A DNA stretch of 64,000 nt from Gammaproteobacteria bacterium. GTDB taxonomy: Bacteria; Pseudomonadota; Gammaproteobacteria; Xanthomonadales; Wenzhouxiangellaceae. This document shows, one piece after another, positions 45,814 to 61,534 of this stretch. Where the stretch lies: the NCBI GenBank assembly GCA_021772975.1, contig JAJFKY010000010.1:1-64000 (forward strand). Direction: 5' to 3'. The notes under the pieces are model-generated. The model saw nothing but the letters and a program-made list of their open reading frames with translations. It did no database searches and was not told where the DNA came from. The translations under genes and the position numbers were made by a program. Position 1 is the stretch's first letter. Each line of letters opens with the position of its first letter.

Positions 45814-46018
45814 TGGCGGCTTGATCTCTGCCGTTGTTTTAAGCCTGATCCTGCTGATTGTCGTCAATGCGCTGATAACCTGAATCAGGATATATTAATT
45901 GACCGATAATAAGTGTTTATGCTAAGTTTTGCCCTTACACAAGGGTCTGTATGCTCAACATACAGTTTAAGCAAGCAATATGGCATGGAGCCAGCAAGGG
46001 CGGCAAAGGAGTAGCGGC

Positions 46019-47005
46019 ATGATTCGTTTCAGCATTTTTATTACGGGGTTTTTAGCATTTTCACTTACGGCTCTGGCGGCCAATAACGAACTGCCGTCGC
46101 TGGTCAAACAGGACTCGGAATTACTGTTCGAGTCGGTAGCCGGTTCCTTATATATGAACCAGGCGGCATCGGGATTATCCAAACAGGCCGGGGAATCCGC
46201 CCAGGTTGATATTGAAATCATTACCTACGCTTTCCGTAATTCCCAAGGCTCGGAACTCGGGCTTGGCTACACCCGTCATGTAACACCCACTTATGAGCCA
46301 GAGTTTAAACCCGGCTCAGGACGCACCAAAAGCGGCCAATTGATTGGCAGTGATGGAACCATTGCCATATCGCTGCTGTTTCCTGGCGCCGGATATGTTG
46401 AATTAATCCGCTCCTTCACTGGTGACATGATCGAAGACGGCTATGCCATTCGCACCAATCTGCAGCGTAATCTGCCGGTCGATACCGATCAGAGTGAAGT
46501 TCTGCTGGCAGATATTGGTTCAGCATTGAGCCAGGCACAGATGTCGCTGTTAATCGACTTCCAATACACCATCAATGAACATGTGATGGAATTGGCCAGC
46601 AACGGCGATGCGCCTCTGGCCTGGCTGGATGCCACCAGCCAAAACAGAACATTTCTAGGATGCGTCGCCGCAACACTCGGATTGGTTGGTACGGCCACAT
46701 TAACTTTAGAAGAAACCGCCTTGTGCGGAACATGCGTGGCGGTCAGGCTGCCCAGTGCCTGCGTGACCTGTGCGGGCGCACTGGCGGTTAACGTCGCGAT
46801 CTTGATCAATGCATTTGAACAATGTCAGGGCATCGGCAATGGCGGTTCAGGTTCCAGCGGTTCTGGTTCGGGTGGCTCTGGAGGTTCAGGGGGTTCTGGC
46901 AATGGTGGCTCCGGCAGCGGCGGCGGCAGCATACCCGGCGGTGGCACGGTGTGCGGCACGGCCTGCTCGGGTGATGAATGTGGGACGACCTGCTGGGCTT
47001 TTTAA
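46019..47005 (+). CDS. Secreted protein with Gly/Ser linker and four-Cys C-terminal tail
   Basis: A 328-residue exported protein. AAAGGAG lies about seven bases before the ATG at 46019, which starts the signal peptide ending LTALAANN; the in-frame ATG at 45980 is less likely. The body is unrecognised. Residues about 215-270 form a hydrophobic Cys-rich segment (LGCVAATLG, ALCGTCVAVRLPSACVTC). Then follows a 35-residue Gly/Ser repeat and the tail CGTACSGDECGTTCWAF, i.e. C-x3-C-x4-C-x3-C-x3-end. The same tail spacing ends the unrelated secreted protein at 59.8-60.7 kb. Convergent to the CHAT protease gene. Function unknown. Confidence 0.85.
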   Translation: MIRFSIFITGFLAFSLTALAANNELPSLVKQDSELLFESVAGSLYMNQAASGLSKQAGESAQVDIEIITYAFRNSQGSELGLGYTRHVTPTYEPEFKPGSGRTKSGQLIGSDGTIAISLLFPGAGYVELIRSFTGDMIEDGYAIRTNLQRNLPVDTDQSEVLLADIGSALSQAQMSLLIDFQYTINEHVMELASNGDAPLAWLDATSQNRTFLGCVAATLGLVGTATLTLEETALCGTCVAVRLPSACVTCAGALAVNVAILINAFEQCQGIGNGGSGSSGSGSGGSGGSGGSGNGGSGSGGGSIPGGGTVCGTACSGDECGTTCWAF

Positions 47006-47151
47006 GTATTCAGCGAGATAAACGGGCGGCCAGTCACAACAAGACCGCCATGTCCACGCCTTAAGCTCAAGCACTGGGAAAGTATGACCGGCTGACGTAG
47101 TCGCCGCATGTTTGCTTCGCACGCTGTAAAGCCGCCCGGGTCCGGGTTGGT

Positions 47152-50100
47152 TTATGCGCTCGGCACCTGCTGATGCCCGCCCTGCAACACAAATCCTGCC
47201 CAGAAGTAGGGATGCTGCCATTCGCTTTGCTTGCGCATCCACTGCTGAGCAGAGCGCAGCGCTGCCTCGGGGCTCAACTGTTGTTGCAGCAGATGAAAAT
47301 AGAAGCGCTCCATCAGCTGCGCGGTGGCGCGGTCGGATACCTGCCATAAGCTGGAAATGACCTGCCGGGCTCCGGCAATCAGAAACGGGCGGCTGAGACT
47401 GAGCAGGCCTTCGCTGCCAACGGATTTACCAATGCCGGTTTCACACCCGCTAAGCACCACCAGTTCGGCATTTAATTCCAGTCCGGCAATGTCCTGAGGC
47501 CGCAGATATCCGACGGATTGATCGGCATCGTCGCCGGCCAGAATCAGCGCGGAGAGCTCCGGCACATCGGCATCGATAACGCCGTGCGTGGCAAAATGAA
47601 TCACGTTGTAATCGCGCAACGTTCCACCGGTCACAAAGTCGTGGTTCACCTCTGCCCCGACCCGCACGGTAACGCTATCAGCATGCTGGCTGGAATCGTT
47701 CCGGGCAATCCGCTGAATGGCCGCTGCTTCCAGTTGCGCACCCGGCAGATTGGCGATATTAATCCCGGATTGACGCATCGAGCGCTGCGCCACCATATGA
47801 CTGAAGTCGATGGTCAGATCACCAAACTGGCTATCCGGTTGCGCTGACGGCATGCTCCCAGCCACATTGGCCAGCGGATCAGCCAGCACCAGAATATCAT
47901 TGCCCATAGTACTGGCCATAGCGTTAGCAATCCTGGCCGGCTGCCTACTCAGCAACTGATAGATCCGGGCTGAAGGCGCGTAGGCCACGGTGTTGTTGGC
48001 CACCATCAGCTTGGCAGCGGAAGAATCCGGCGACTGCAAAGGCAGCAAGCCGAACGGCACCTGCTGCAGACCGCCATCGGCCACTACAATCAGTCGCCGT
48101 TCCGCAATCATGTCCGCGGCCGGCCGCAGCACCATGTCACTTAACTGATCAGCGATATAGGCAATGCGGCTGGGTGACTGGCGGTGATTGCGCAGCACCT
48201 GCGACAACTGCCTGGCGATGCTGTTGATCGAGTCCGCGGCAGGCAGCGGGTAATAGGCTATCGCGGCACGGCTGATAACCCATAAATGACTGCGCTGTGC
48301 GCCTAAAAAGTAATTCAGCACCGCGACATCATCAGCCAGCTGCTGCTGAAATTCGCCGGCCTCCGGCAATGCCATCATCGCGATCGCCCGCTGCTCTGAG
48401 TCCTGCGGATCCTGGATTAAATCCAGCAGCGTGCGGGCACGAATCTGTTCATTAATGCTCCACGCCAGTTCGGTGTCACCGGCATCCACCAGCAGGTTGA
48501 TGTAGTGTTCAAACGCATCCCGGCGGCTGGCCAGAAAACCGGTCTGAATATCAGCGGTAACGGTCCGGGCGCGAATACCCAGCGCCAGTTCGGCGGCGGT
48601 CCGGGCGGTATCCAATGCAGCGATACCGCTTTGTGCCCGCGATAGCGCCGTGAGGGTGTCGAGTTCATACAGTTCATCGGCAACAGCCCGATGGCCCTGG
48701 AGTGCTGATTGCAGCTCCCGCCGGGCGTCATCAGGCCTGCCCTGAGCCAGCAATAACTGACCCAGGCGTGACTGCGCACGGGCGGACTGACGGATATTCC
48801 CCAATGCCTCAAGGGTCTGGATAGCCTGCTGCTGGCTGCTCAGTGCCTGCCGGTGAGCCCCAGTTTGATACAACAACATGCCCTGCAGGCTGGTTACCAC
48901 CGCGGCTGAAGCCGGCTGGTTGCTGTTGCTGAAGCTGTCCCGCGCGGTCTCAAATTGATCGTTGGCGAGGCTCATTCTGCCCAAACGCCGGTTGGCATTG
49001 GCTAACTGCTGAAAAATATAAGCGCGTTGCTGCTGGTTGCTGCCGACCAGTTCCAAGGCCTGCTGATAATGATTGATGGCACTGTCCAGTTCATCAATTG
49101 ATGCATACACATTACCCAGCCCGGACATGGCCTGGGCTAACCAGACATCATCGTTTAACCGGGTAAACGCCTCGGCCGCACTGTTCAGATAATCCAGTGC
49201 CTGTTCCAGCCGGCCCTGCTCCTGCAGCATTTTGCCCAGATTCAATTCCGCCCGGGCAACATCGACAACACTACCCGCTGACTGAGCTGCATCAATCGCT
49301 TTAAGCCATAGCGATTCGGCCTGCTCAGTATCACCGGTAGATGATCTGGCCAAGGCCAGATTATTCAGGGCTTTGGCTATTTCAGCCAGATTGCCGGTTG
49401 CAGCCAATTGCTCAATATCAAGCGCAACAATCTGGTCCACGGATAGTTCCACACGCCCGGCAAACAGTGGCAACGCCAGAGAATAGGCCTGACTGGCGGC
49501 GGGATAATCATCCAGGTACCAATTGGCCAACGCGATATTATTAAGTGCCTGTGCCTGGTAAAAACGACTGTTGTTAGCCGAGTGCAGGCTTAAGGCTTTA
49601 TCAAACAACCGCAATGCATGGGTATATTCCCCTAAATGCAGGGCAACCAGACCTAATGCGTTATTGGCGGCAGCTACGCCCTGGGTATTATTTGATAATT
49701 GAAAAGCCTTAAGTGACCTTTGGAAATTGATTCTGGCTTTATCCGGCTGGCCCATGCGACGGTGAATAACGCCCAGCTCAAAATAAATATCTGCCCGCCA
49801 GTCAGCATAAGCCCCTTTGTTTAATACGGATAGTGCATCCTGATAAGCGGCTATGGCCTGCTTACGGGCTGATTCGGTATGCGCATCAAGCGCACGGTGG
49901 TGACCCGCCAGCGCTAATGCACGCAATCCGTTAACTGCATCTGGCCGGCTAAAGTTGCCGTCGGTCTGGCGCAGCCAGATAATGTTTACCTCACCGGGTA
50001 AATTGTGGTTTTCCAGGTTCTGAACCTTAATCCTGGCAGCATACCGACCCTGCTCATCGGTCAGCGATAGTAGATAACGACCTTCACGGCCACGCCAGGT

Positions 50101-50364
50101 TACGGATTGGCTAAGCACGCGGCCCTGTGCATCCAGGGCGCTGGCGATGGTATCAAAGCCTGCATTCCGGACTTCCAGAAACTCCGCCCGCTCGGCAGGC
50201 AGTTCCAGCATCCATGTCTCGCCTGCCAGCAGTGTTCTGGACTCCTGTTGAGCAGCAGGCGGCACGGCGGCCGCCTGCGCAACAAAAATGCACAGCAATA
50301 ATGTCGCTATCGACCACGCTTGCCAATTTCGCCAAGCGGCTGCTGTGATTGCATTGGTGTTCAT
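47152..50364 (-). CDS. Secreted TPR-CHAT protease
   Basis: A 1070-residue protein with a signal peptide (about 1-34, ending VAQAAAV), an N-terminal beta domain (about 40-130), roughly ten TPR repeats (150-640) and a C-terminal CHAT caspase-like domain (about 740-1065). The catalytic dyad is intact: His927 in HFATHG and Cys974 in LSGCETG; GLLSLSRPFLIAGARQVISS closes the domain. CHAT proteases cleave partner proteins in several bacterial and eukaryotic systems. This one should act outside the cytosol. The small secreted protein gene lies 23 bases upstream on the same strand, and the Cys-tailed protein gene is convergent. Confidence 0.92.
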   Translation of the reverse strand: MNTNAITAAAWRNWQAWSIATLLLCIFVAQAAAVPPAAQQESRTLLAGETWMLELPAERAEFLEVRNAGFDTIASALDAQGRVLSQSVTWRGREGRYLLSLTDEQGRYAARIKVQNLENHNLPGEVNIIWLRQTDGNFSRPDAVNGLRALALAGHHRALDAHTESARKQAIAAYQDALSVLNKGAYADWRADIYFELGVIHRRMGQPDKARINFQRSLKAFQLSNNTQGVAAANNALGLVALHLGEYTHALRLFDKALSLHSANNSRFYQAQALNNIALANWYLDDYPAASQAYSLALPLFAGRVELSVDQIVALDIEQLAATGNLAEIAKALNNLALARSSTGDTEQAESLWLKAIDAAQSAGSVVDVARAELNLGKMLQEQGRLEQALDYLNSAAEAFTRLNDDVWLAQAMSGLGNVYASIDELDSAINHYQQALELVGSNQQQRAYIFQQLANANRRLGRMSLANDQFETARDSFSNSNQPASAAVVTSLQGMLLYQTGAHRQALSSQQQAIQTLEALGNIRQSARAQSRLGQLLLAQGRPDDARRELQSALQGHRAVADELYELDTLTALSRAQSGIAALDTARTAAELALGIRARTVTADIQTGFLASRRDAFEHYINLLVDAGDTELAWSINEQIRARTLLDLIQDPQDSEQRAIAMMALPEAGEFQQQLADDVAVLNYFLGAQRSHLWVISRAAIAYYPLPAADSINSIARQLSQVLRNHRQSPSRIAYIADQLSDMVLRPAADMIAERRLIVVADGGLQQVPFGLLPLQSPDSSAAKLMVANNTVAYAPSARIYQLLSRQPARIANAMASTMGNDILVLADPLANVAGSMPSAQPDSQFGDLTIDFSHMVAQRSMRQSGINIANLPGAQLEAAAIQRIARNDSSQHADSVTVRVGAEVNHDFVTGGTLRDYNVIHFATHGVIDADVPELSALILAGDDADQSVGYLRPQDIAGLELNAELVVLSGCETGIGKSVGSEGLLSLSRPFLIAGARQVISSLWQVSDRATAQLMERFYFHLLQQQLSPEAALRSAQQWMRKQSEWQHPYFWAGFVLQGGHQQVPSA

Positions 50365-50387
50365 TAATACATCCTATTATTTAATGC

Positions 50388-50975
50388 TCATTCGGTCACA
50401 ATGTTTCCACTGCCACCAACTGCGGTGCCATCTTCGGGTCGGCCGGCAATCCCGCAGACCACGTTAGGGTTATCCACTTCCCGGGATAACCAGCGCATGC
50501 TTTTGATACCCGGTTCAGCAACCGGCAGCAGGGCAATCTCCAGTTGCCGGGCAACCTGATCCAGGCCATCCCAGTAATTGCACTGCAACACCAGGTTGTC
50601 ATCCGCATCAACGGCCAGATAGCCGTTACCCGGGCAAACCGTATGCTGGACTGCCTGGCTAACCGTGCTATTGGGATCTGTACCCGGTGGTTCGACATAA
50701 AAATCTACCGACCAGCCCTTGGTCTGGATATTGCACTGAATATCAATAGCATCATTTTCCTTAATATCTATACTACTGCCTAAATCGCATGTTGCGCCGA
50801 CAATCCAGGTGTCGGCATAACCTGCCTCACAGACGGCCTCAGCCGTCATCGCTATTTCCAAAGCGCTTTGCGCCCTTGCTGTAGTCAGTCCGGCTGTGCA
50901 GCACAGCATTGCTGCCAGCATTAAAACGCCAGGAAGTTGGTCGGTTTTACTGGTAATAATGGTACTTTTTTTCAT
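50388..50975 (-). CDS. Secreted hypothetical protein co-transcribed with the CHAT gene
   Basis: A 195-residue exported protein with a signal peptide ending TTARAQS. The mature part is acidic, has six Cys (for example EAVCEAGYADTWIVGATC, QHTVCPGNGY, VVCGIAG), which suggests disulfides, and a WYxD-type motif NYWDGLDQVARQL. No family recognised. It lies 23 bases upstream of the CHAT gene, so the two probably form an operon and may be substrate or inhibitor and protease, which is inference. Confidence 0.65.
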   Translation of the reverse strand: MKKSTIITSKTDQLPGVLMLAAMLCCTAGLTTARAQSALEIAMTAEAVCEAGYADTWIVGATCDLGSSIDIKENDAIDIQCNIQTKGWSVDFYVEPPGTDPNSTVSQAVQHTVCPGNGYLAVDADDNLVLQCNYWDGLDQVARQLEIALLPVAEPGIKSMRWLSREVDNPNVVCGIAGRPEDGTAVGGSGNIVTE

Positions 50976-51573
50976 CGTCAGTTCCTTGCTACTGGTTAGG
51001 GAATGGAATTGACGCGCAAGCAGTACCCCTACTTACCTACTTCCTTGGTCTGCTGAAACTGAACTCCGGCAACCGCCAGTGAAGACAATCAGCCAGCACT
51101 ACTAACATCAAGTCACCGTAGTTAAACGGAGATCAAGTCGATAGCAATGCATCCCAGCTCATGTACTCCCTGCGCGGCCAATTTAGTTTGACGAACCGGC
51201 GAAGCGGCCGATTCATTTCAATTTCAACTGGGGATACTTGCCCCCGAAACTCAATCTAATGCCTGATATAGCTACCTATATAATGCCACCAGATGCTCAT
51301 TTCTCTCATTTCGCGAAACCATAAATAATCTGCTGGCGTCAGCTTGCGAGCCAATCCAGGGCATTGATAACACTCTGTTGTTAAGTTTTGACTGGCAGGC
51401 TGGATACACCAGCGTACGGCTGGCAGGGAATCTGGTGGGAGAGCAGTTGCTGCGCCGGCCCGGCAAAGCGCTGACTTGCTGCCCTACCAGGGCTGGGATT
51501 TACCCTCCCGGCCCGGAACCGCTCAGGCTGTGCCGAGCGGCTTAAGTTAACCGGTTGAAATCAGCCGGTCGAA
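50976..51573. other. Intergenic region with possible decayed coding remnant
   Basis: No intact gene. The plus strand from about 51358 reads DNTLLLSFDWQAGYTSVRLA and NLVGEQLLRR in one frame, which looks protein-like, but lacks a start and ends soon after. It may be a remnant of a deleted gene. I do not recognise its family. The rest shows nothing. Confidence 0.35.
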
Positions 51574-54500
51574 CTATGCTTGGGGCAGGTCAACATAAGC
51601 TTCGCCCTGATCAGCCGCCATCCGATTCAAACGGGCGAGTTCTTCATCCAGCAGTCTCTGCAGAGCAGCTTCCTGCGCGGCCAGCGCCTCAGCCAGTTCC
51701 GCCTGGACCTCGCGCATGCCCTGGCTGGGCGGACCAGGATGATCAAAGCCGGTGTAATACAGCCAACCCAAGCGGGACAGCAATTTGGCGCCGCCGTCAC
51801 GGCCCGCCAGAATATCGTAATCAACCCTGGCATCGGGGGTATACAGAGCCTTTTCAATCTGACCGGCCTGGGTAAGAATATCCTTGCCCAGCACCAGCAA
51901 TGGACTGTCCTCAGCCGTCTCCGGACGGCGCTTATGATGTGCCTGGATCTGTGCCTGGATGGAATCCAGGGTCTGGGCATGCTGCGCGATTCGATTGAGC
52001 ATATCGCGCAGCTGCAATTGGAAATCAACCTGGGCCTGCAGGTCGTCGAGATCAGTCTCAGCACGCGGGTCGGCCAGCACCGTTAACGGCTGCTCATAGG
52101 ATTCATCGCCCACCTGCAAGCGCAGGCGGTATTGACCTGGCGCCACCATCGGCCCGGTGCTGACATCACCTACATCGGTGCGTGCGCCCGCAATGCGTTG
52201 CGCGCCGGCGTGCCGCAGATCCCAGGCTACACGTTGCAAGCCCTGTTCGGACTTCAGTTCCGGCTTGTTTTCTGAACCGGGCACCCAGTTGGGATGATCT
52301 GGCTCGGTGTAGGGTGGCCGGGCTACGCTGCTGAGGGTACGAATCACCTGATCGGAGGCATCCAGCACTTCCAGCGTGAGTTCCACTTCAGCTTCAGCCT
52401 CGGCCGCCAGGTAATAACTGATCAGCGCACCGGCCGGTGGATTGGCCGCGGCGCCATCGGTGTAGGCATTGGGCGCCCGGGTATAGGTCCAGCGGGTTGC
52501 CGGACGGGGTGCGAACAAATGCGCGGGCTGCTGTTTGATCGCTTCGCTCATCGCCCGGACCGGGGTCAGATCATCCAGTATCCAGGCCGAACGGCCGATG
52601 GTGGCGACCACCAGGTCATCGCCCGCCAGGGCCAGATCAGCAATCGCCACGGTCGGCATATTCAACTGCAATGATGTCCAGCTGGCGCCGTCATCGTGCG
52701 ATACCATCACACCGCGTTCGGTGCCCAGATACAACAGGCCCTGCTGTCGGGTATCTTCGGCGATCACATGCAGATAGACTTCCTCATCCAGATTGCTGCT
52801 CAGGTTTTGCCAGCGGCGTCCGTAATCGCTGGTTTTCCACACATACGGTGTTTCATTATCCAGCCGATGCGCATCGGCCACCACGTAGGCGGTCCCGGCG
52901 TCAAAGCGGGACGCCACAATGCTGTTCACGGTGCCCCATTCGGGCATGCCGCCGGGTGTGACCGCTGACCAGTCCCGGCCATCATCGCGCGACACATGCA
53001 CCAGGCCGTCATCGCTGCCGGCCCACAATACCCCGGCTTCCAACGGCGATTCCGCCAGCGCAAAAATGGTGCTGTAAAACTCCACGCCGGTGTTATCCCC
53101 GGTAATCGGCCCACCGGCCCATTGCTGCTTGCTCTTATCATCGCGGGTCAGATCGGGACTGATGATCTCCCAGCTCTGACCACCGTCGCGAGTGCGCTGC
53201 AGGGTCTGGCTGGCGTGATAAACCAGGTCGGAATCGTGCGGCGAAATCATAATCGGAGCGGTCCACTGGAAACGGTGACGCAGGTCTTTGGCGCCATGAC
53301 CCGAACCGTTATCCGGGTAAATGCCGACATGCGGCGCGGCGCCGGTGCGCTGATCATAGCGGGAAAAATAACCCAGGTATTCGCCGGCATAGACAATCTC
53401 CGGATCAGTCGGATCAGCCACCACATGTCCCGCCTCGCCACCACCTACCGGGTGCCAGTCCCAGAACAATATGCCGCCGCTGTGCAGGCTGTTGCTTGGC
53501 CCGGACATGGTGCCCCAGTCCTGAATGCTGCCCATTACCCGGTAGGGCGTGCTGGTATCGGTGGAGATACGGTAGAACTGGGCGGTCGGCAACGGTGGCC
53601 GCGTCCAGCTTTTGCCGCCGTCCAGCGATAACGACACCCCGGCATCACTGCCAACCAGCATGCGGTTCGGGTCCTGCGAATCAATCCAGACATCGTGATA
53701 ATCCCAGCCACCGCCTTTGACCGAACGGACATTCTCGCCACCATCAATGGTTTTCAGCATGCCCACCTGCGGAAACCACACGGTATCGGCATCGCCAGGA
53801 TCAACGGTCAGCGTTGAGTAATACCAGGCCCGCTGGGTCAGACCGGCCGAATCACTGATCCGTCGCCAGCTGGCGCCGCCATCATCCGAGCGGAACAATC
53901 CACCCTGTTCGGCTTCGATCAGTGCATATACCCGCTCTGGTTTGTGCGCGGCAACCCGCACGCCTATTCGACCCAGAATACCGTCCGGCAAGCCTTTACC
54001 GGTAAGTTTTTCCCAGCTTTCACCGCCGTCCCTGGATTGATACAGGCCACTACCGGGGCCACCGCTCCGCATGTCCCAGGGAGATCGGCGGGTCTGCCAC
54101 ATGGCGGCAAACAAAATACTCGGGTTAGCGGGATTGAAGGTCACGTCAATGCCGCCGGTATCCTGATCCACAAACAACACCTGCTGCCAGCTATCGCCAC
54201 CATCGATGGTGCGGTAGATGCCACGCTCCGGGCCGGGTCCGAACGGACTGCCCAACACCGCGGCCAGTACCACGGCCTCATTGTCGGGATGAATCGCCAG
54301 CGCACCGATCTGCCCCTCGGCCTGCCACACATGCGACCAATTCTCCCCGCCATCGGTGGAGCGGTAAATACCATTGCCCTCGGCAACATTGCCACGGATA
54401 TTGGCCTCACCGGAACCCACGTACACTACATTGGGATTGCCGGGCGCCACCGCCACCGAACCGGTCGAGGAAATAGACTGCTCATCAAACACCGGCGACC

Positions 54501-54744
54501 ACTTAAACCCACCATTTTTCGAGCGCCACACCCCACCCGAAGCCGTCGCGGCAAAATAAGTCAACGGATCACCCGCAACCCCCGTTACCCGCGCCACCCG
54601 GCCACTGGCCGCCGGACCGATCAAACGGTATTCCAGGCCGGATTCTTCCTCATCTTCCTGGGCCGGTAAACCCAGTGCCAGCAGGCCCATAAGCAACATT
54701 AAGATGGTCTTTAACACAAAGAGGCGAGGCAGATTCGTTGGCAT
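51574..54744 (-). CDS. Secreted VPS10/sortilin-type BNR propeller protein
   Basis: A 1056-residue exported protein with a signal peptide ending LPAQED. It carries at least eight Asp-box (BNR) motifs: STDGGENWSH, TIDGGDSWQQ, SRDGGESWEK, SDDGGASWRR, SLDGGKSWTR, TRDGGQSWEI, SRDDGRDWSA and SHDDGASWTS, as in ten-bladed sortilin-like and exo-glycosidase-like propellers. From about residue 770 a Fn3-like domain and an alpha-helical C-terminus follow. Similar proteins are annotated as glycosyl hydrolases, but no catalytic residues are assigned. The N-terminus is duplicated as a broken copy at about 59.2-59.4 kb. Confidence 0.88.
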   Translation of the reverse strand: MPTNLPRLFVLKTILMLLMGLLALGLPAQEDEEESGLEYRLIGPAASGRVARVTGVAGDPLTYFAATASGGVWRSKNGGFKWSPVFDEQSISSTGSVAVAPGNPNVVYVGSGEANIRGNVAEGNGIYRSTDGGENWSHVWQAEGQIGALAIHPDNEAVVLAAVLGSPFGPGPERGIYRTIDGGDSWQQVLFVDQDTGGIDVTFNPANPSILFAAMWQTRRSPWDMRSGGPGSGLYQSRDGGESWEKLTGKGLPDGILGRIGVRVAAHKPERVYALIEAEQGGLFRSDDGGASWRRISDSAGLTQRAWYYSTLTVDPGDADTVWFPQVGMLKTIDGGENVRSVKGGGWDYHDVWIDSQDPNRMLVGSDAGVSLSLDGGKSWTRPPLPTAQFYRISTDTSTPYRVMGSIQDWGTMSGPSNSLHSGGILFWDWHPVGGGEAGHVVADPTDPEIVYAGEYLGYFSRYDQRTGAAPHVGIYPDNGSGHGAKDLRHRFQWTAPIMISPHDSDLVYHASQTLQRTRDGGQSWEIISPDLTRDDKSKQQWAGGPITGDNTGVEFYSTIFALAESPLEAGVLWAGSDDGLVHVSRDDGRDWSAVTPGGMPEWGTVNSIVASRFDAGTAYVVADAHRLDNETPYVWKTSDYGRRWQNLSSNLDEEVYLHVIAEDTRQQGLLYLGTERGVMVSHDDGASWTSLQLNMPTVAIADLALAGDDLVVATIGRSAWILDDLTPVRAMSEAIKQQPAHLFAPRPATRWTYTRAPNAYTDGAAANPPAGALISYYLAAEAEAEVELTLEVLDASDQVIRTLSSVARPPYTEPDHPNWVPGSENKPELKSEQGLQRVAWDLRHAGAQRIAGARTDVGDVSTGPMVAPGQYRLRLQVGDESYEQPLTVLADPRAETDLDDLQAQVDFQLQLRDMLNRIAQHAQTLDSIQAQIQAHHKRRPETAEDSPLLVLGKDILTQAGQIEKALYTPDARVDYDILAGRDGGAKLLSRLGWLYYTGFDHPGPPSQGMREVQAELAEALAAQEAALQRLLDEELARLNRMAADQGEAYVDLPQA

Positions 54745-54879
54745 GATTGTTATCCTAAAAGCGGTGTGGAATCAGTGTCTGATTATTGCATAATCGATTG
54801 TCGTAAAGGCCATAACACCACTGAACAGGCTATCAATATGACAAGGCCATCCGTCAACTCTGGCCAAGTGGTGTGGAGC

Positions 54880-55171
54880 CTTAGGAACCTCTGATTTAAT
54901 CTGTCATGAACCGCGCCATTAAACTACCCTGGGATCGAAGTCGTCCAAGACAAGGCGTCGCCGGGCAGTGCAATAGCTGGCCTATTGCCAGGCGGCGCAA
55001 CGCAGGGTTGGGCGATTTAGAGCATGATCCTTAGGGAGCGGCCTTGTTTGGCGCGTTACAGCGCTTCGCCAGCTTGACGTAGCCCGCTATGCCTGCGCTG
55101 ACAAAACACCACCCTGTGCTCAAAAAAGGGCCCGCTCGCGGTCATGTCAGATTAAATCAGAAGTTCCCTTA
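54880..55171. mobile_element. MITE-like element with 20-base inverted ends
   Basis: GGAACCTCTGATTTAATCTG (54884-54903) and its inverse with one mismatch (55148-55167) bound a 284-base non-coding segment. A direct CTTA duplication flanks both ends (54880-54883 and 55168-55171), as expected for a target-site duplication. The interior resembles the widespread proteobacterial repeat containing GACAAGGCGTCGCCGGGCA and TAGAGCATGATCCT words. A partial relative lies near 59575-59625. No transposase is present, so it would be moved in trans. Confidence 0.78.
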
Positions 55172-55272
55172 ATTGAAGCAGCCGATGGTGCCTGGCCATG
55201 CCATCTGGTCAGTTTCTTCACCCGCAATGATTGGTATAGACTGTCGACTCAACGGCACGGAGGCATCAGCCA

Positions 55273-55635
55273 ATGCAGCTTAAAAATATTATTCGCACTT
55301 GTGGTCTTTTCCTGATCATTGTTTTTGGGATCGGTATTGCCCAGTCACAGCAACAAACCGGTAACCTGAAAGGAACAGTCTCGGATAACCAAGGGCAGCA
55401 GTTACCTGGGGTTCTCATAACGATCACCAGCCCTGTGATGACTGGGGAACGGGTTCAGGTAACTAACGCCGAGGGTCGCTATCGGTTTTTAGAACTCCCG
55501 CCTGGAAACTATGAATTGACGGCCGAGCTGGAAGGTTTTGCCACGGTAAAACGCACAAACATTCGAATCCAGTTGGGACAAACTATAACGGTGGATATCG
55601 CCATGACAGTTTCGACCATGGAAGAGCTTGAATAG
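55273..55635 (+). CDS. Secreted carboxypeptidase regulatory-like domain protein, copy 1
   Basis: 120 residues: signal peptide to IAQSQQQ, then a single CarboxypepD_reg (peptidase M14 associated) beta-sandwich from GNLKGTVSDNQGQQLPGVLI to GQTITVDIAMTV. This domain normally precedes TonB-dependent receptors or follows M14 peptidases; here it stands alone and ends (MEELE) where a TonB box would begin. The paralogue at 60.99 kb ends at the same point. A cell-surface or periplasmic adaptor role is an inference. Confidence 0.8.
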   Translation: MQLKNIIRTCGLFLIIVFGIGIAQSQQQTGNLKGTVSDNQGQQLPGVLITITSPVMTGERVQVTNAEGRYRFLELPPGNYELTAELEGFATVKRTNIRIQLGQTITVDIAMTVSTMEELE

Positions 55636-55749
55636 GCCCGATGCCTATTACTCTGGTCGGCGCCTCCACGTGAACCTCTGATAGAAAAATAGCTGAGGTA
55701 ATAACTTGGCTGCCTCGTTGTGGATCATCGGCTTGCCCATAGGTTCGAC

Positions 55750-55805
55750 CTATGGGCTTCGATAGTAAAACCCGATATTTTGGACCAAGTCATCATCGAT
55801 CTGGT
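55750..55805 (-). pseudogene. Remnant of an NTF2-like gene, copy 1
   Basis: The minus strand reads IDDDLVQNIGFYYRSP before a stop, matching VDDGLIQNIWFYYRNP of the longer remnant at 61.5 kb. Too short to be a gene; it is the C-terminal end of a SnoaL/NTF2-type protein carried in the duplication. Confidence 0.65.
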
Positions 55806-55890
55806 GGGAATCTGGACATCCATAACTTTACCCTGTGGCCATATCAGTTTTAATTGAAAGCAATGGATGCCCAGGAGAATACAGCAAGAA

Positions 55891-57789
55891 TTACCACACG
55901 TTGTAATGTGCAATACGAAATCCGTAATACTCCATTCCCAGATACATGCGACCATCAAAAGTTGTCAAGGCGCATGCTTTGTCGTTTTCTAAGTAAGGAA
56001 TATCTGCTTTGGCTTGCGACGTCCAGTTAGTTCCATCGAAAGAGGCATAATAAACACCGTCATTACGATAACCATTCCAGGCAGCATATAACTTCTGATG
56101 GTACGACGCCAAAGCAGGCGCATGCTTAGTACCCATATCCAACATGGGGTTTTCGGCTATCCAATCGGAACCATTATTGGTAGATGCCAAGTAAATTTTT
56201 TCGTCATGTTTCCATCCAGCATACAGCCTGCCTTGATGTGCAGCCAGCGCGGGTGAGGTATCTGTTGTTTTATCGGACGAATATCCAATTTTGGATTGCG
56301 AAGTCCACTGCGTTCCATTAAAGGAAGCATAAAAAACGCCGTCATCGTGATACCCACTCCAGGCGGTGTATAACCTCCCGTTAAAGGCCGCGAGCACAGG
56401 GGCTGCTCTGGTGGACATGCTCGTTAACGTTGCTTCCATTTCCCAACTCTTACCATCCGCGCTCGAAGCCAGGTAGATATTCTCGTCATGTATCCAGGCA
56501 CAATACAGCTTACCGTTATAAACGGCCAAAGCAGGCGCTTCTCCACTTCCTGACTGGCTTGACCCCGGTATTTTCAGCTTTTCGCTCCATTGATACCCAT
56601 CAAAAGAAGCCGCATAAATATCGCCGTTTCCATTGCCTTTCCAAGCCATATGCAAAGCATTATTAAATGCTGTCAATGCAGGTTTTTTATCTGATTCTTT
56701 AGCACCTCTAGCTTGTGGAGACCAGTAACTTCCACTGCCTGAAGGAGTATAAGCGGGATGCAGGTATGTTTTAAGACTTACACTACTGCTTTCTTCATGA
56801 AAACTGACTGTCTTATCCCCAGCGTTAATGGTTCCTACGTTCATATAGTCAGTGCCAAATTCCACCAATAAAAACCTGTTATATTGAGATGAACCACTAA
56901 AAAAGTACGGTACAGTGGTATTGGGAATCACACCCGCATACCCAAAGAATTCATGGCGATGCCCTACAAAAACGGCTATGACATTATTTCCATTTATCGG
57001 TGCTGATAATTCCTCTAGATGATTTAAGTGCATGTTAATAACGATTCTTTTGCCTCTAGCCGAGGCCTGCTTTAGATCGTTTTCCAGCCACGCTATGGAT
57101 GATTTAACAGGAATGTCCTTTTCTGCATAGGTTGGTTTATTGTGCAACTGGACAAAATGGTAATTTCCTATCTCGAACGAGTAGGCGAGACTATCTTTAT
57201 CAAAGCTCTGAACGACAAAATTATTAAAGGTCTCCACCCTCTGGTGTTCCATTATATCGTCTCTGATATATCTGGTGGCTTGGCGCGCACAATGCATATA
57301 GCCATCTTTGAACCAACCCCAAATCGAATCCGCACAACTATTAACGTTATTTTGGTAGTCATGGTTCCCCAGGCCTGGATAGACATGGTACTGGAAGCCT
57401 GTGTCGTAATATTTTTGGTATAACTGCTTTTGCCAATCATGCCAATATGCCGTCAGGTCACCATTAATAATGACGCCCAAGGGTTTTGTAATCGAACTAC
57501 CCTTGCCTCTTGTTAATTGGCTAACGTCGGGCCATTTCCCGACTACTACCCCATTAGAAGATGTGGCTTGATCAATTTTATGCATCGCACCCACCTGCCA
57601 GGCATTTGATCTTTTCCCTTGCTCCTCCTCAGAACCAGGGCCGCAATACTCACAGACCCAAACCAACTGCGGGTCTGAAGAAATTATCATTGTGAAACGA
57701 CTGTAATCATCCTGTTGTGCGTGTACTGTTTGTGCCAATAAAGCAAGTAACACAACCATAAACCACATACACAGCTTTCCATTTTCCAT
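55891..57789 (-). CDS. Secreted metallophosphoesterase with C-terminal propeller
   Basis: 632 residues with a signal peptide ending TVHAQQ. The calcineurin-like phosphoesterase part has Asp39 in SSDPQLVW (D-x-Q in place of D-x-H), NGD (109-111), GNHD (141-144), INMHLNH and VGHRHEF. From about residue 370 five repeats of the form ALxxxxxxLYxAWxxxxxxxIYxAS...W follow, resembling fucose-binding or sialidase-like propeller lectins. The gene is visibly richer in A and T than neighbours, suggesting transfer. It has no operon partner. Likely an extracellular phosphoesterase with carbohydrate targeting; substrate unknown. Confidence 0.85.
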   Translation of the reverse strand: MENGKLCMWFMVVLLALLAQTVHAQQDDYSRFTMIISSDPQLVWVCEYCGPGSEEEQGKRSNAWQVGAMHKIDQATSSNGVVVGKWPDVSQLTRGKGSSITKPLGVIINGDLTAYWHDWQKQLYQKYYDTGFQYHVYPGLGNHDYQNNVNSCADSIWGWFKDGYMHCARQATRYIRDDIMEHQRVETFNNFVVQSFDKDSLAYSFEIGNYHFVQLHNKPTYAEKDIPVKSSIAWLENDLKQASARGKRIVINMHLNHLEELSAPINGNNVIAVFVGHRHEFFGYAGVIPNTTVPYFFSGSSQYNRFLLVEFGTDYMNVGTINAGDKTVSFHEESSSVSLKTYLHPAYTPSGSGSYWSPQARGAKESDKKPALTAFNNALHMAWKGNGNGDIYAASFDGYQWSEKLKIPGSSQSGSGEAPALAVYNGKLYCAWIHDENIYLASSADGKSWEMEATLTSMSTRAAPVLAAFNGRLYTAWSGYHDDGVFYASFNGTQWTSQSKIGYSSDKTTDTSPALAAHQGRLYAGWKHDEKIYLASTNNGSDWIAENPMLDMGTKHAPALASYHQKLYAAWNGYRNDGVYYASFDGTNWTSQAKADIPYLENDKACALTTFDGRMYLGMEYYGFRIAHYNVW

Positions 57790-58145
57790 GTTCTATCTCC
57801 CAAATGCCAGAACGATTCAAATTATGTCGACGGGGTAAACAATCAGTAGCAGCCTAATTTTTAATGCCGCTCTTATTAGAGATTATTGATTGAGTATGGC
57901 CGCTAATATTTTAGTCATTGTATAATGAGCAATCCTGCTGCTTAATCAGTAAATGATTCAATTGTTCTGCGCCCTCCGGCCAGATATTGGCTTGTTCACT
58001 GTGCATCAATTGTCGACTCAATGCAATTAACCCGCGGCGAATCTCGGCATGTGTATTAACGGAATGATTGCCGTAGGTCGGTTTAGAGCCAGCGGCTCGT
58101 AAACCGACAATGCCATTCTCATCGGAGCTTCTGTGTTTGATTGTT
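57790..58145. other. Intergenic region with palindromic repeat
   Basis: No gene. It contains a full copy (58078-58107) of the palindrome TCGGTTTAGAGCC / GGCTCGTAAACCGA, related to the one at 8250-8279. Sequence before it is AT-rich, like the neighbouring phosphoesterase gene. Confidence 0.6.
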
Positions 58146-58837
58146 TTACCTGCTGTCGGCTTTGGTGGCCGCGACCCATTCGAGAATCAATTCTTCCAGC
58201 AATGCGAGGGGCAGGCTGCCGTTGGCCAGTAGTTGGTCATGGAAGTCGCGAATCTTAAATTCAGTGCCCAGTTCGCGCTCAGCTATGTTGCGCAGTTCGC
58301 GTATTTTCAGCTCGCCGATTTTGTATGACAGCGCCTGGGCGGGCCAGGTGATGTAGCGGTCGATCCGGCTTTCTACGTCGGCCACGCTTAAGGCGGTGTT
58401 ATTGGCCAGGTAGTCGATGGCCTGCCGGCGAGTCCAGCCTTTGGCATGCATGCCGGTATCAACCACCAAACGGCAGGCGCGCCACATTTCATAGGTCAGG
58501 CGGCCGAAGTCGCTGTATGGGTCCTGGTAGAAACCCATCTCTTTGCCGAGACTTTCCGAGTACAACCCCCAGCCTTCGCCGTAAGCGGAGTGGTACAGCG
58601 TTTTTCTGAATTCGGGGACATCCAGTTCCATGGCGATGGCGCCTTGAAAGTGATGCCCTGGTTCGGCTTCGTGGAAGGTGAGTGCTTCCAGGTTGTAGAG
58701 GGGTTGGCTTTTTAGATCGTTGGTATCGAGAAAATACGTACCAGAGGTGGTGCCACTGCCATCATATGCCACATAGTAGGCGCCTCCACCAGGGCTGGAT
58801 TTGATATCGGAAGTGCCACGCGGCAGCACACCAAACG
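58146..58837 (-). pseudogene. 3' remnant of a DUF885 gene
   Basis: It encodes about the last 225 residues of a DUF885 protein with the core motif LTFHEAEPGHHFQGAIAMEL and an intact C-terminus ending WVAATKADSR. The N-terminal two thirds are missing: at GVLPRGTSD the frame runs into short tandem elements and then into a VPS10-like remnant. The fused frame stays open to about 59066, but lacks a signal peptide, so it is most likely non-functional. It is the third DUF885 sequence in the window. Confidence 0.8.
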
Positions 58838-58851
58838 GGTAGAGTTGGGAC

Positions 58852-59112
58852 GGGTAGAGTTGGGACACCCACTTCTTAGCCATTACACATCCTAGCGGGT
58901 AGGGGTAGAGTTGGGACACCCACTTCTTAGCCATTACACATCCTAGAACGGATAGAATTGTGGGTGTCCGAATTCTTCTTGGCGGCCCTGACCGTTCAGC
59001 CTGAACCAACCTGCTCAAAGTCGTCGCGGCAGCGTCAATCAACGGAGATAGAGTTGGGACACCCACCTCTTAGCCATTACACATCCTAGAACGGATAAAA
59101 TTGTGGGTGTCC
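58852..59112. repeat. Tandem short elements with GGACACCCAC inverted ends
   Basis: Two 56-base elements (58914-58969 and 59057-59112) start GGACACCCAC and end with its exact inverse GTGGGTGTCC. A third, right-truncated copy starts at 58863 and a partial lead-in at 58838. Between them lies one unit of a 61-base direct repeat (58986-59046, repeated with one difference at 59138-59198). The elements are non-coding and may be REP- or MITE-type sequences. The words also occur at 3679-3690. Confidence 0.75.
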
Positions 59113-59137
59113 GAATTCTTCTTCCGAATTCTTCTGG

Positions 59138-59365
59138 CCCTGACCGTTCAGCCTGAACCAACCTGCTCAAAGCCGTCGCGGCAGCGTCAATCAACGGATG
59201 ACCCGTAACCCGCGCCACTCGGCCACTGACAGTCGGAGCGATCAAACGGTATTTCAGACCGGCTTTGGACCCTTGTCTAGCTTCCTGAGCTGGTAACACT
59301 GGCGTCAACAGACTGGCTGACAGCAGCAAGACAGTCTTCAACACAAACAACCGAGACCGATTCAT
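59138..59365 (-). pseudogene. N-terminal remnant of a VPS10-type propeller gene
   Basis: The minus strand reads MNRSRLFVLKTVLLL, a signal peptide and GLKYRLIAPTVSGRVARVTG, clearly homologous to the start of the intact gene at 54744. After about 60 residues the sequence diverges and enters the 61-base direct repeat. No BNR blade remains. It is a truncated paralogue now joined to a DUF885 remnant. Confidence 0.8.
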
Positions 59366-59762
59366 TAGCATTATCGTTACCCTCAAAACGGCACGAGTGT
59401 TTTAGGGAATATTGCATAGTCGGCAACCGAAAAACCAGAACCCTGTTGAATCGCTAACGAAGTGGAGATGCCAATAACACTAACCTATGGCATATGCGCT
59501 TAACGGGGAGCGATCGGTGCCAGGATTCGCATAAGAACTGCTTGTCTTGGGCGATTTGGAACCTGGCGCGGCTTGTCCAGGGTAGTTTAATGCCGCGGGC
59601 ATTTCAGCCTAAATCATAAATTATCCTTTCGAGCCATATCACGAAGGTTAAAGCATCTGCCAAGTGCGAGATATTGGTAGATAACACGTCAGTTATTACT
59701 GACACCCGCACACAAGCTGCATCAGCTAAGCATTACCAAAGGGCGACAAAGGAGATTGAAGT
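59366..59762. other. Intergenic region with partial MITE relative
   Basis: The first part resembles the region upstream of the intact VPS10 gene. At about 59540-59625 is a degenerate piece of the MITE-like element (GGGTAGTTTAATGCCGCGGG). No gene is visible before the Cys-tailed protein. Confidence 0.5.
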
Positions 59763-60722
59763 ATGCAAAGAATAGGCTTTTTTCTGTTCTTTATTATCGG
59801 CGCTTTATCAGCGCCCGCATTCGCCAGCAAAGCAGCGCTGTGCGATAACTGCCCCCTCTCTCAGGCACGTCAGTTGGCATTGACAACGGCGGGTTCAGCG
59901 ACCCGATTTGGTATTACAGTTTACATTGGCGATTTCAACAACAGCCAGCTATACAAGTTTTTCCTGCTTGATAGCGGTAATCCACTAAGCCCGACCGGGG
60001 AGCCTCGGGACTTTGGCGATTTGGTGGAGCAGGCAGAAGATTTTCCCAAAATTCTGAATCAAGCGATCATCCATAAGGGCGATACAAGCCGTTCAGGCGT
60101 CACGATTGCACAATTGCAGCCATCCGTCGCCGAGCAACGCGATTTTGACGAACTCGACTGGCTGGTGGCCTATCTGGATAGCCGGGGCATACCAACACGC
60201 GACAGCATTCGTGCAGGCGGGCCACCAGCCATCTTTGATTGGAATGTCCCTGACGGATTTGGTTTTGATTCTGCATTTGATGTGATGGATTTTGTAGGAC
60301 TCCAAAGGCAACTAGGAAGAGTAGCCATAGCAGCCAGTCCTTTCATAGCCGATGCCGTCGCCGCGTTATCCTTCAGCACCAACATTGTAGATTTGAAACC
60401 CTTTTTCAATCTGGAGTTTTCATACAAATTCCACTTCTCCGATGGTTCTACTGGGTTATTCGTGTTCGACAACCAGGGAGAACTGCAAGGCGTGTCAGGC
60501 AGCTGGCGAGATTCGGAGTTAAATGATATTCCCCAAACAGCCGCCGATGTAAATGGAATGTCGTCCTTCTTTGGATCAGGTGGGGGGACTAATTTTAACC
60601 GGACTCGTGATCGGGTTATTCAGTTTGCCTATAGCGTTAGTGGTGGCGGTGGCAACGGTAGTAGTGGATGTTCGTTCACATGCAATGAGCAAAGCTGCAC
60701 AGTCACCTGCCGTACAAACTGA
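59763..60722 (+). CDS. Secreted protein with Gly/Ser linker and four-Cys C-terminal tail, second
   Basis: A 319-residue exported protein with signal peptide ending PAFASK and an early CDNC pair. AAAGGAG precedes the ATG by seven to nine bases. The body is unrecognised: it has an acidic stretch about 130-190 and beta strands such as NLEFSYKFHFSDGSTGLFVF. The C-terminus is SGGGGGNGSSG-like followed by CSFTCNEQSCTVTCRTN, i.e. C-x3-C-x4-C-x3-C-x3-end, identical in spacing to the tail of the protein at 46.0-47.0 kb although the bodies are unrelated. This suggests a shared C-terminal signal. Function unknown. Confidence 0.82.
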   Translation: MQRIGFFLFFIIGALSAPAFASKAALCDNCPLSQARQLALTTAGSATRFGITVYIGDFNNSQLYKFFLLDSGNPLSPTGEPRDFGDLVEQAEDFPKILNQAIIHKGDTSRSGVTIAQLQPSVAEQRDFDELDWLVAYLDSRGIPTRDSIRAGGPPAIFDWNVPDGFGFDSAFDVMDFVGLQRQLGRVAIAASPFIADAVAALSFSTNIVDLKPFFNLEFSYKFHFSDGSTGLFVFDNQGELQGVSGSWRDSELNDIPQTAADVNGMSSFFGSGGGTNFNRTRDRVIQFAYSVSGGGGNGSSGCSFTCNEQSCTVTCRTN

Positions 60723-60950: not shown

Positions 60951-61534
60951 TTGGTGTAGACTATCGACTCGGCGCACGGAGGAATCAGTCAATGACACTT
61001 AAAAATATTATCCGCGTTTGTGGGCTTTTTTTGATCATTGTTTCTGGTATCGGTATTGCGCAATCGCAATCAGAAGCCGGTAGCCTGGACGGAATGGTAT
61101 CGGATAGCCAGGGAGAGCCGTTGCCCGGGGTTGTCTTAACCATCACCAGCCCTGTGCTTGTTGGGGAACGGATCCAGGTGACTAACGCCGCGGGACGCTA
61201 TCGGTTTTTAGGACTCCCGCCGGGAAACTATGCATTGACGGCCGAGCTGGAAGGCTTTGTTACAGTAGAACGCCCGAACATTACAGTTCGATTGGGGCAG
61301 CCGACTGTTGTTAATGTCACCATGACGCTTGCGTCCGTGGAAGAGGTTGAATAGGTCCAAGGCCTAGTAATCCAATCGGATAATCTAATCGGGACCACGC
61401 GAACTTCTGATAGAAGCGCCTGTAGTTACGACGTGGCTATCACAGCATAGATTATGAGCATGCCCGCAGGTCTAACCTACGGGTTTCGATAATAAAACCA
61501 GATATTCTGAATCAAGCCATCGTCGACCTGGGAA
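60951..61534. repeat. Segmental duplication, copy 2
   Basis: Pairs with 55231-55810. It contains the second carboxypeptidase-regulatory-like gene and the longer NTF2-like remnant. Base differences are spread evenly, so the duplication is not recent. Confidence 0.8.
60992..61354 (+). CDS. Secreted carboxypeptidase regulatory-like domain protein, copy 2
   Basis: 120 residues, same length as the 55.3 kb paralogue and clearly its duplicate (both share LTAELEGF, GRYRFL and LPPGNY blocks). Signal peptide to IAQSQSE, then one CarboxypepD_reg domain. It ends SVEEVE, the point before a TonB box in receptor proteins. The reading frame is intact despite divergence, which argues for selection on both copies. 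Confidence 0.8.
   Translation: MTLKNIIRVCGLFLIIVSGIGIAQSQSEAGSLDGMVSDSQGEPLPGVVLTITSPVLVGERIQVTNAAGRYRFLGLPPGNYALTAELEGFVTVERPNITVRLGQPTVVNVTMTLASVEEVE

Follow-up and report, generated by a model that had tools for sequence, protein, structure and literature searches.

Two exported proteins encoded in a 64,000-nucleotide stretch of a Wenzhouxiangellaceae genome (assembly GCA_021772975.1, contig JAJFKY010000010.1, positions 1 to 64,000 of the forward strand; hereafter the window) end in the same arrangement of four cysteines, C-x3-C-x4-C-x3-C-x3-stop, as a first-pass annotation of the sequence had noticed. The second protein belongs to a divergent exported family, named family B here for its CxxC motif and terminal cysteine hairpin, and our analysis indicates that the four-cysteine tail recurs genuinely in that family and is unlikely to be a sorting tag. 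The account that we put forward, with a little more confidence than doubt, is that the tail is a tiny disulfide hairpin on a flexible arm, a feature of family B that serves as a rigid end or binding finger. Taken separately, the hairpin fold is quite likely and the role is tentative. The features concerned are as follows.

46019-47005, plus strand: protein 1, 328 residues, with a signal peptide (by eye), an N-terminal region, a six-cysteine core, a linker and the tail (open reading frame [ORF]; a longer start at 45980 is also listed).
46628-46834, plus strand: six-cysteine core of protein 1, common to its relatives (profile A9).
46835-46951, plus strand: long Gly/Ser-rich linker of protein 1 (direct reading).
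46952-47002, plus strand: four-cysteine tail of protein 1, CGTACSGDECGTTCWAF (ORF, direct reading, tail profile).
59763-60722, plus strand: protein 2, 319 residues, a family-B member (ORF; paralogs and homologs; body-profile match).
59841-59852, plus strand: N-terminal CDNC motif of protein 2, a CxxC common in family B (alignment of profile A3, family-B ORFs).
60642-60668, plus strand: short Gly/Ser linker GGGGNGSSG of protein 2 (direct reading).
60669-60719, plus strand: four-cysteine tail of protein 2, CSFTCNEQSCTVTCRTN (ORF, direct reading, tail profile, low-confidence strand model).

The initial description of the pair holds up: both ORFs end in the identical pattern, a Gly/Ser stretch precedes each tail, and the rest of the two proteins is dissimilar, with a best E-value of 0.24 when one was compared to the other by BLASTP, and full-length homology was rejected on this basis. 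We assessed the position of the pattern in a gene sample of 770 crude longest-ORF calls from 901,584 of the 3,735,965 bases (24% of the genome); its contigs were picked for carrying copies and are not random, so it informs on where the motif lies rather than on its density. C-x3-C-x4-C-x3-C was found four times in this sample, in all four cases at the exact C-terminus. Cysteine makes up 0.94% of the residues in the signal-like proteins of the sample, as defined by a home-made signal-peptide rule, and at that frequency four fixed cysteine positions have a chance of about 8e-9 per protein.

Membership of protein 2 in family B does not depend on the tail, as it matched a tail-less profile of 22 other family-B ORFs (one of them a near relative, from genome G001) with an E-value of 5.4e-26; the same profile also finds its paralogs. 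Using the five-row body profile A3 on 398 genomes of the order, we found the family in 30, this one included, although the search scored only part of the first-look candidates (5 of 12 in this genome) and its misses are not clean. One member overlooked by it (L132) was found through the wide tail profile A8 and confirmed by the tail-less profile of 22 members (E 1.3e-13). Most family-B ORFs share, by eye, a signal peptide, the N-terminal CxxC, a DGS-type motif and a DSxGNxIP-like motif, and the family has no Pfam or NCBIfam match. Neither window protein scored above the cut-off in either database, where the methanobactin, TOMM and DUF7571 models gave only weak scores far below cut-off, and searching plasmids with protein 2 or with the body of a third protein, C22 (named after its contig), gave nothing useful. 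A scan of a genome collection recovered one relative, in the Gammaproteobacteria metagenome-assembled genome OFTM154, with a changed tail of C-x6-C-x5-C-x3-C-x3.

Terminal cysteines are typical of the family: at least two fall within the last 25 residues in 29 of 31 family-B ORFs, versus 48 of 770 sample genes. Exactly two, one pair, are present in 20 of 30 family-B tails (nine residues apart in 7 of these 20), in contrast to the two pairs of protein 2. A one-rung hairpin would be the usual family-B end, and the two-rung ladder a variant found in a subset of members. Five family-B copies were found in this genome, and three of them (L026 on contig C3, L027 on C8 and L028 on C18) have been disrupted by stops, frameshifts or loss, which points to duplication and decay. 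Positions 54884-55167 of the window hold one copy of a dispersed repeat that resembles a miniature inverted-repeat transposable element, being about 290 bases long and bounded by terminal inverted repeats of 26 bases (92%); it also occurs on contigs C3, C8 and C18 of the same genome. A shorter copy of about 150 bases is located inside the broken family-B gene of C18, and a full-length one follows that of C8 at a distance of about 100 bases.

To examine the fold of the tail, we compared nine ladders, picked for their three-residue arms, a set that omits three other four-cysteine tails (L034, L051 and L053) and the degenerate tails on C18 and at C3:99305. The loop has 4 residues in six of them and 5, 6 or 8 in the others, and the chain always ends three residues after the last cysteine. 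In the four-residue-loop form, the facing positions would be 1 and 14 (both Cys), 3 and 12 (W or F opposite L, V or I) and 5 and 10 (both Cys); the cross-strand pair of W/F with L/V/I is present in eight of the nine ladders, with T and T in protein 1 as the exception. The number of cysteines in the mature protein is even in all 26 family-B ORFs with the N-terminal CxxC, a count that takes in the short ORFs L048 and L061 (24 of 24 without them) and for which L034 was counted as 8 from a CxxC upstream of its ORF start, a recount giving 8 and 6. Across 30 tails, a number that omits both short ORFs, hydrophobic residues occur two positions before the last cysteine in 23, as compared with 4 three positions before and 14 one position before; alternation in the first strand is weak, with hydrophobic residues at the first cysteine +2 in 12, +1 in 9 and +3 in 5. 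Cysteine parity and hydrophobic alternation together fit a two-disulfide beta-hairpin. The tail of protein 2 is also better conserved than the body when compared with the paralog on C3 (15/17 versus 119/266 identical residues) and the homolog in G004 (9/17 versus 77/260). An AlphaFold model of protein 2 built on two sequences, itself unreliable, placed strands at residues 303-307 and 312-316, exactly CSFTC and CTVTC.

Several observations weigh against this interpretation. Compared with the homologs in G001 (5/17 versus 101/268) and G012 (3/17 versus 63/259), protein 2 is conserved less in the tail than in the body. Mean predicted local distance difference test scores were poor (37.6 for protein 2, and 34.1 for protein 1 modelled from a single sequence), the model of protein 1 has a short helix and no hairpin at the tail, and solved structures offered no parallel: the tail profile found nothing in the PDB, where another search gave three chance-like matches (best E 0.053). 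Three of the nine family-B tails with four cysteines in the last 25 residues (L034, L051 and L053) are not ladders with three-residue arms; that of L034, from G001, reads C-x6-C-x5-C-x3-C. An even separation of the cysteines was observed in 6 of the 20 two-cysteine tails, the broken copy on C18 has Gly in place of the first cysteine, and C22 and three relatives of protein 1 (L140-L142) have nine mature cysteines by eye, an odd number.

Given the spacing and the facing residues, the tail may be described as a very small beta-hairpin, C-x-[W/F]-x-C-(loop)-C-x-[L/V/I]-x-C-x3-end, in which two disulfide rungs (C1-C4 and C2-C3, a predicted pairing) would lock the structure at the end of the flexible Gly/Ser arm. 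Signal peptides direct proteins out of the cytoplasm, and cysteines become oxidised in the periplasm. Protein 2 and its relatives would take this route and the tail cysteines would be oxidised there, possibly with onward secretion by a type II system; two GspD secretins score over the cut-off in this genome. The likeliest role would be to provide a rigid terminus protected from carboxypeptidases and tail-specific proteases, a small binding surface, or both. The same two-rung ladder may also be carried by an unrelated body, that of C22.

Whether one module or several lie behind the shared spacing was evaluated with tests free of circularity, namely a strict four-row family-B tail profile, a seven-tail family-B profile built without protein 1 and C22, and random fill-ins with the cysteines kept. 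The C22 protein (C22:9716-10567) does not match the family-B body profile (E 89), but its tail ranks third among the 770 sample C-termini with the seven-tail profile, behind two training sequences, at an E-value of 9e-6 (21.1 bits) with the HMMER composition correction and 5.6e-7 (25.0 bits) without it; in a full-length protein search with this profile, C22 scored 15.0 bits (E 7.5e-4). By comparison, protein 1 fails to match the body profile (E 76), and its tail reaches only 3.7-3.9 bits, rank 8 of 770 and an E-value of 2.3. The 22-member tail-less body profile was used to repeat the family-B test for both proteins. The claim of the first-pass annotation that a conserved module sits on different bodies is therefore supported by way of C22, whose tail matches while its body does not, and is not supported for the pair that it named, where only the cysteine spacing is common. 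We conclude that C22 and family B, with unrelated bodies, probably have a tail in common, and that protein 1 probably arrived at this spacing independently.

Relatives of protein 1 were sought with profile A9, made from the cores of protein 1 and its G043 relative, which gave five matches in four of 378 genomes, protein 1 included. The core relatives are found in G043, G002 (two) and G024, three of them having been discovered by A9. L140, L141 and L142 end in VPIY(R/Q)...VCVDGxC(W/Y) behind a Pro/Gly linker, which constitutes a second terminal cysteine module, and L143 ends directly after the core. Because three relatives end in this other module, the likeness between proteins 1 and 2 may reflect parallel evolution and not the copying of a module. 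C22 was considered as a member of the protein 1 family and rejected (core profile E 160, no C22 match in the A9 core search); an earlier weak protein 1 match on C22 (E 3e-5) spans the Gly/Ser linker and tail.

The strongest alternative extends parallel evolution to every case, with the tails of protein 1, protein 2 and C22 arising separately because the spacing is an easy one for a hairpin. Protein 1 speaks for it: its tail score was reached by 826 of 2000 random fill-ins, as expected of random letters outside the cysteines, and its three relatives have a different module. So do the identical spacing of the animal peptide tachyplesin and the strict profile, which found the tails of neither C22 nor protein 1 when run on the whole genome at E-values up to 10. 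The tail of C22 argues the other way, matching beyond its cysteines with a score reached by 1 of 2000 fill-ins, a count that assumes free random residues and ignores selection on strand residues. On balance, we regard convergence throughout as rather unlikely.

The distribution of the tail was surveyed with profile A2, 20 columns from six tails that include both window tails, making its matches to these circular. It identified seven places in this genome with E < 1e-3, of which four are in intact reading frames (protein 1, protein 2, the paralog at C3:144307-145254 and C22) and three are tails of disrupted protein 2 paralogs (on C8, on C18 and at C3:99305); all except those on C18 and at C3:99305 belong to the seed or overlap it. 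Matches in the 43 genomes of the family were confined to this one and G004, likewise represented in the seed, and the same two were found among 398 genomes of the order; across 398 genomes of the phylum, this genome was joined by one partial, chance-like match (E 0.0077). The wider profile A8, which adds the tails of L044 and L050, raised the family count to 3 of 43 with G046, yet its seed already holds tails from G000, G004 and G046, the three genomes in question. Two proteins were matched in G046, one of them in the seed, leaving L132, which ends in C-x3-C-x5-C-x3-C-x3, as the sole new find. Other A8 matches had E-values of 0.027 to 0.99; five of them were inspected, and these gave short ORFs lacking such a tail (L114, L116, L120 and L133) or no ORF at all (L115).

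These counts bear on the suggestion that the tail is a C-terminal sorting or processing tag of the GlyGly-CTERM or MYXO-CTERM kind, recognised by a dedicated enzyme. The exact terminal position, the linker, the occurrence on at least two unrelated bodies, the higher conservation of the tail relative to the body when protein 2 is compared with two four-cysteine homologs, and the presence of type II secretins would all suit a tag. Direct reading of the 17-residue tails reveals no membrane helix or basic end, however, and the number of cysteine pairs, one or two, varies inside a single family. Copies are few, at seven places in the genome with three in broken genes, and even the wide profile reaches only 3 of 43 family genomes. 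The first-pass annotation knew of no matching tag, and NCBIfam CTERM models hit neither of the two full proteins (E up to 1) nor any of three tails (E up to 10). A co-distributed enzyme was sought among neighbouring genes only, partners encoded elsewhere being outside the scope of the comparison, at 29 loci that represent the flanks of 19 of the 30 family-B genomes, the locus of C22 and three more that encode relatives of protein 1. No gene recurred: BLASTP of 484 ORFs yielded no cluster of more than three loci besides that of family B itself (15 loci). Lacking a helix, a CTERM model match and a partner gene at these loci, a sorting tag of known type was rejected, and we consider any tag with a dedicated enzyme improbable. 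A loose pattern search found an F-x-DGFE-like tail near the C-terminus of 9 of the 770 sample genes, on C3, C8 and C22 (e.g. EFFQDGFEAVPPPPVQ); this recurring motif is perhaps a better sorting-tag candidate. In our estimate it is similarly improbable that exported proteins of this lineage exchange the two-rung hairpin as a mobile C-terminal module of a hitherto undescribed kind, acting as a docking or export signal that is read by its folded shape rather than as a sequence motif with a membrane helix.

The small zinc or disulfide module proposed as an alternative fares differently in its two halves, the disulfide part being supported, mainly by C22, and the zinc part not. Four cysteines within 14 residues could hold one metal ion, but the proteins are exported, their cysteine number is even, the 20 of 30 family-B tails with exactly two cysteines would leave two ligands, and the x3-x4-x3 spacing is unlike that of CxxC knuckles, so we judge a metal site very unlikely. 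Least plausible, and close to negligible, is a peptide released from its carrier and modified in the manner of ribosomally synthesized and post-translationally modified peptides (thiazole/methyl-oxazole or thioether type), for which the Cys/Ser/Thr-rich end after a Gly-rich run and a sub-threshold TOMM match of the protein 2 tail (E 0.077, 12.8 bits, cut-off 33) are set against the signal peptide on a 300-residue body, the distance of that score from the cut-off and the lack of a recurring neighbour gene at the 29 loci, no genome-wide search for modifying enzymes having been made.

Elsewhere in the window, a TPR-CHAT protein at 47152-50364 on the minus strand is convergent with protein 1; such proteins have a caspase-like fold. 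Two similar 120-residue proteins, at 55273-55635 and 60992-61354, each have an apparent signal peptide and one carboxypeptidase-regulatory-like domain. The minus-strand segment at 58146-59066 looks like a gene remnant: it encodes a C-terminal portion of a DUF885 protein (positions 326-531 of the 532 in the profile), and in front of this lies a short stretch that is partly repeated and contains a 15-base tandem repeat (58835-58866).

Under the disulfide-hairpin account, the tail points to an exported family spread across the order, without a Pfam or NCBIfam match above cut-off, that has a defined and testable end structure, and supplies a small scaffold of natural origin, a disulfide hairpin joined to bacterial proteins. 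It also cautions that terminal cysteine tails behind linkers are not necessarily sorting tags.

Among the literature matches listed, which consist of titles and the starts of abstracts, none describes such a tail. Tachyplesin is strongly cationic and folds as a hairpin. Its disulfides, Cys3-Cys16 and Cys7-Cys12 according to PMC9962029, form the pairing that we propose for the bacterial tail, and its C-x3-C-x4-C-x3-C spacing is identical. Tachyplesin is a free animal peptide, whereas the window tail is the near-neutral end of a larger bacterial protein, and we claim no homology. The window tails resemble the GlyGly-CTERM/rhombosortase system in that exported proteins carry a Gly/Ser-rich stretch close to the C-terminus; GlyGly-CTERM consists of a Gly/Ser motif, a hydrophobic region and a basic end, the latter two being absent here. 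The MYXO-CTERM/myxosortase system likewise places cysteine in a short C-terminal motif. In MYXO-CTERM, a membrane segment follows the invariant cysteine. The signal is tripartite and typically found on dozens of proteins per genome, according to PMC11980579. Unlike MYXO-CTERM, the tail reported here has four cysteines, few copies and no helix, and the chain stops three residues past the last cysteine.
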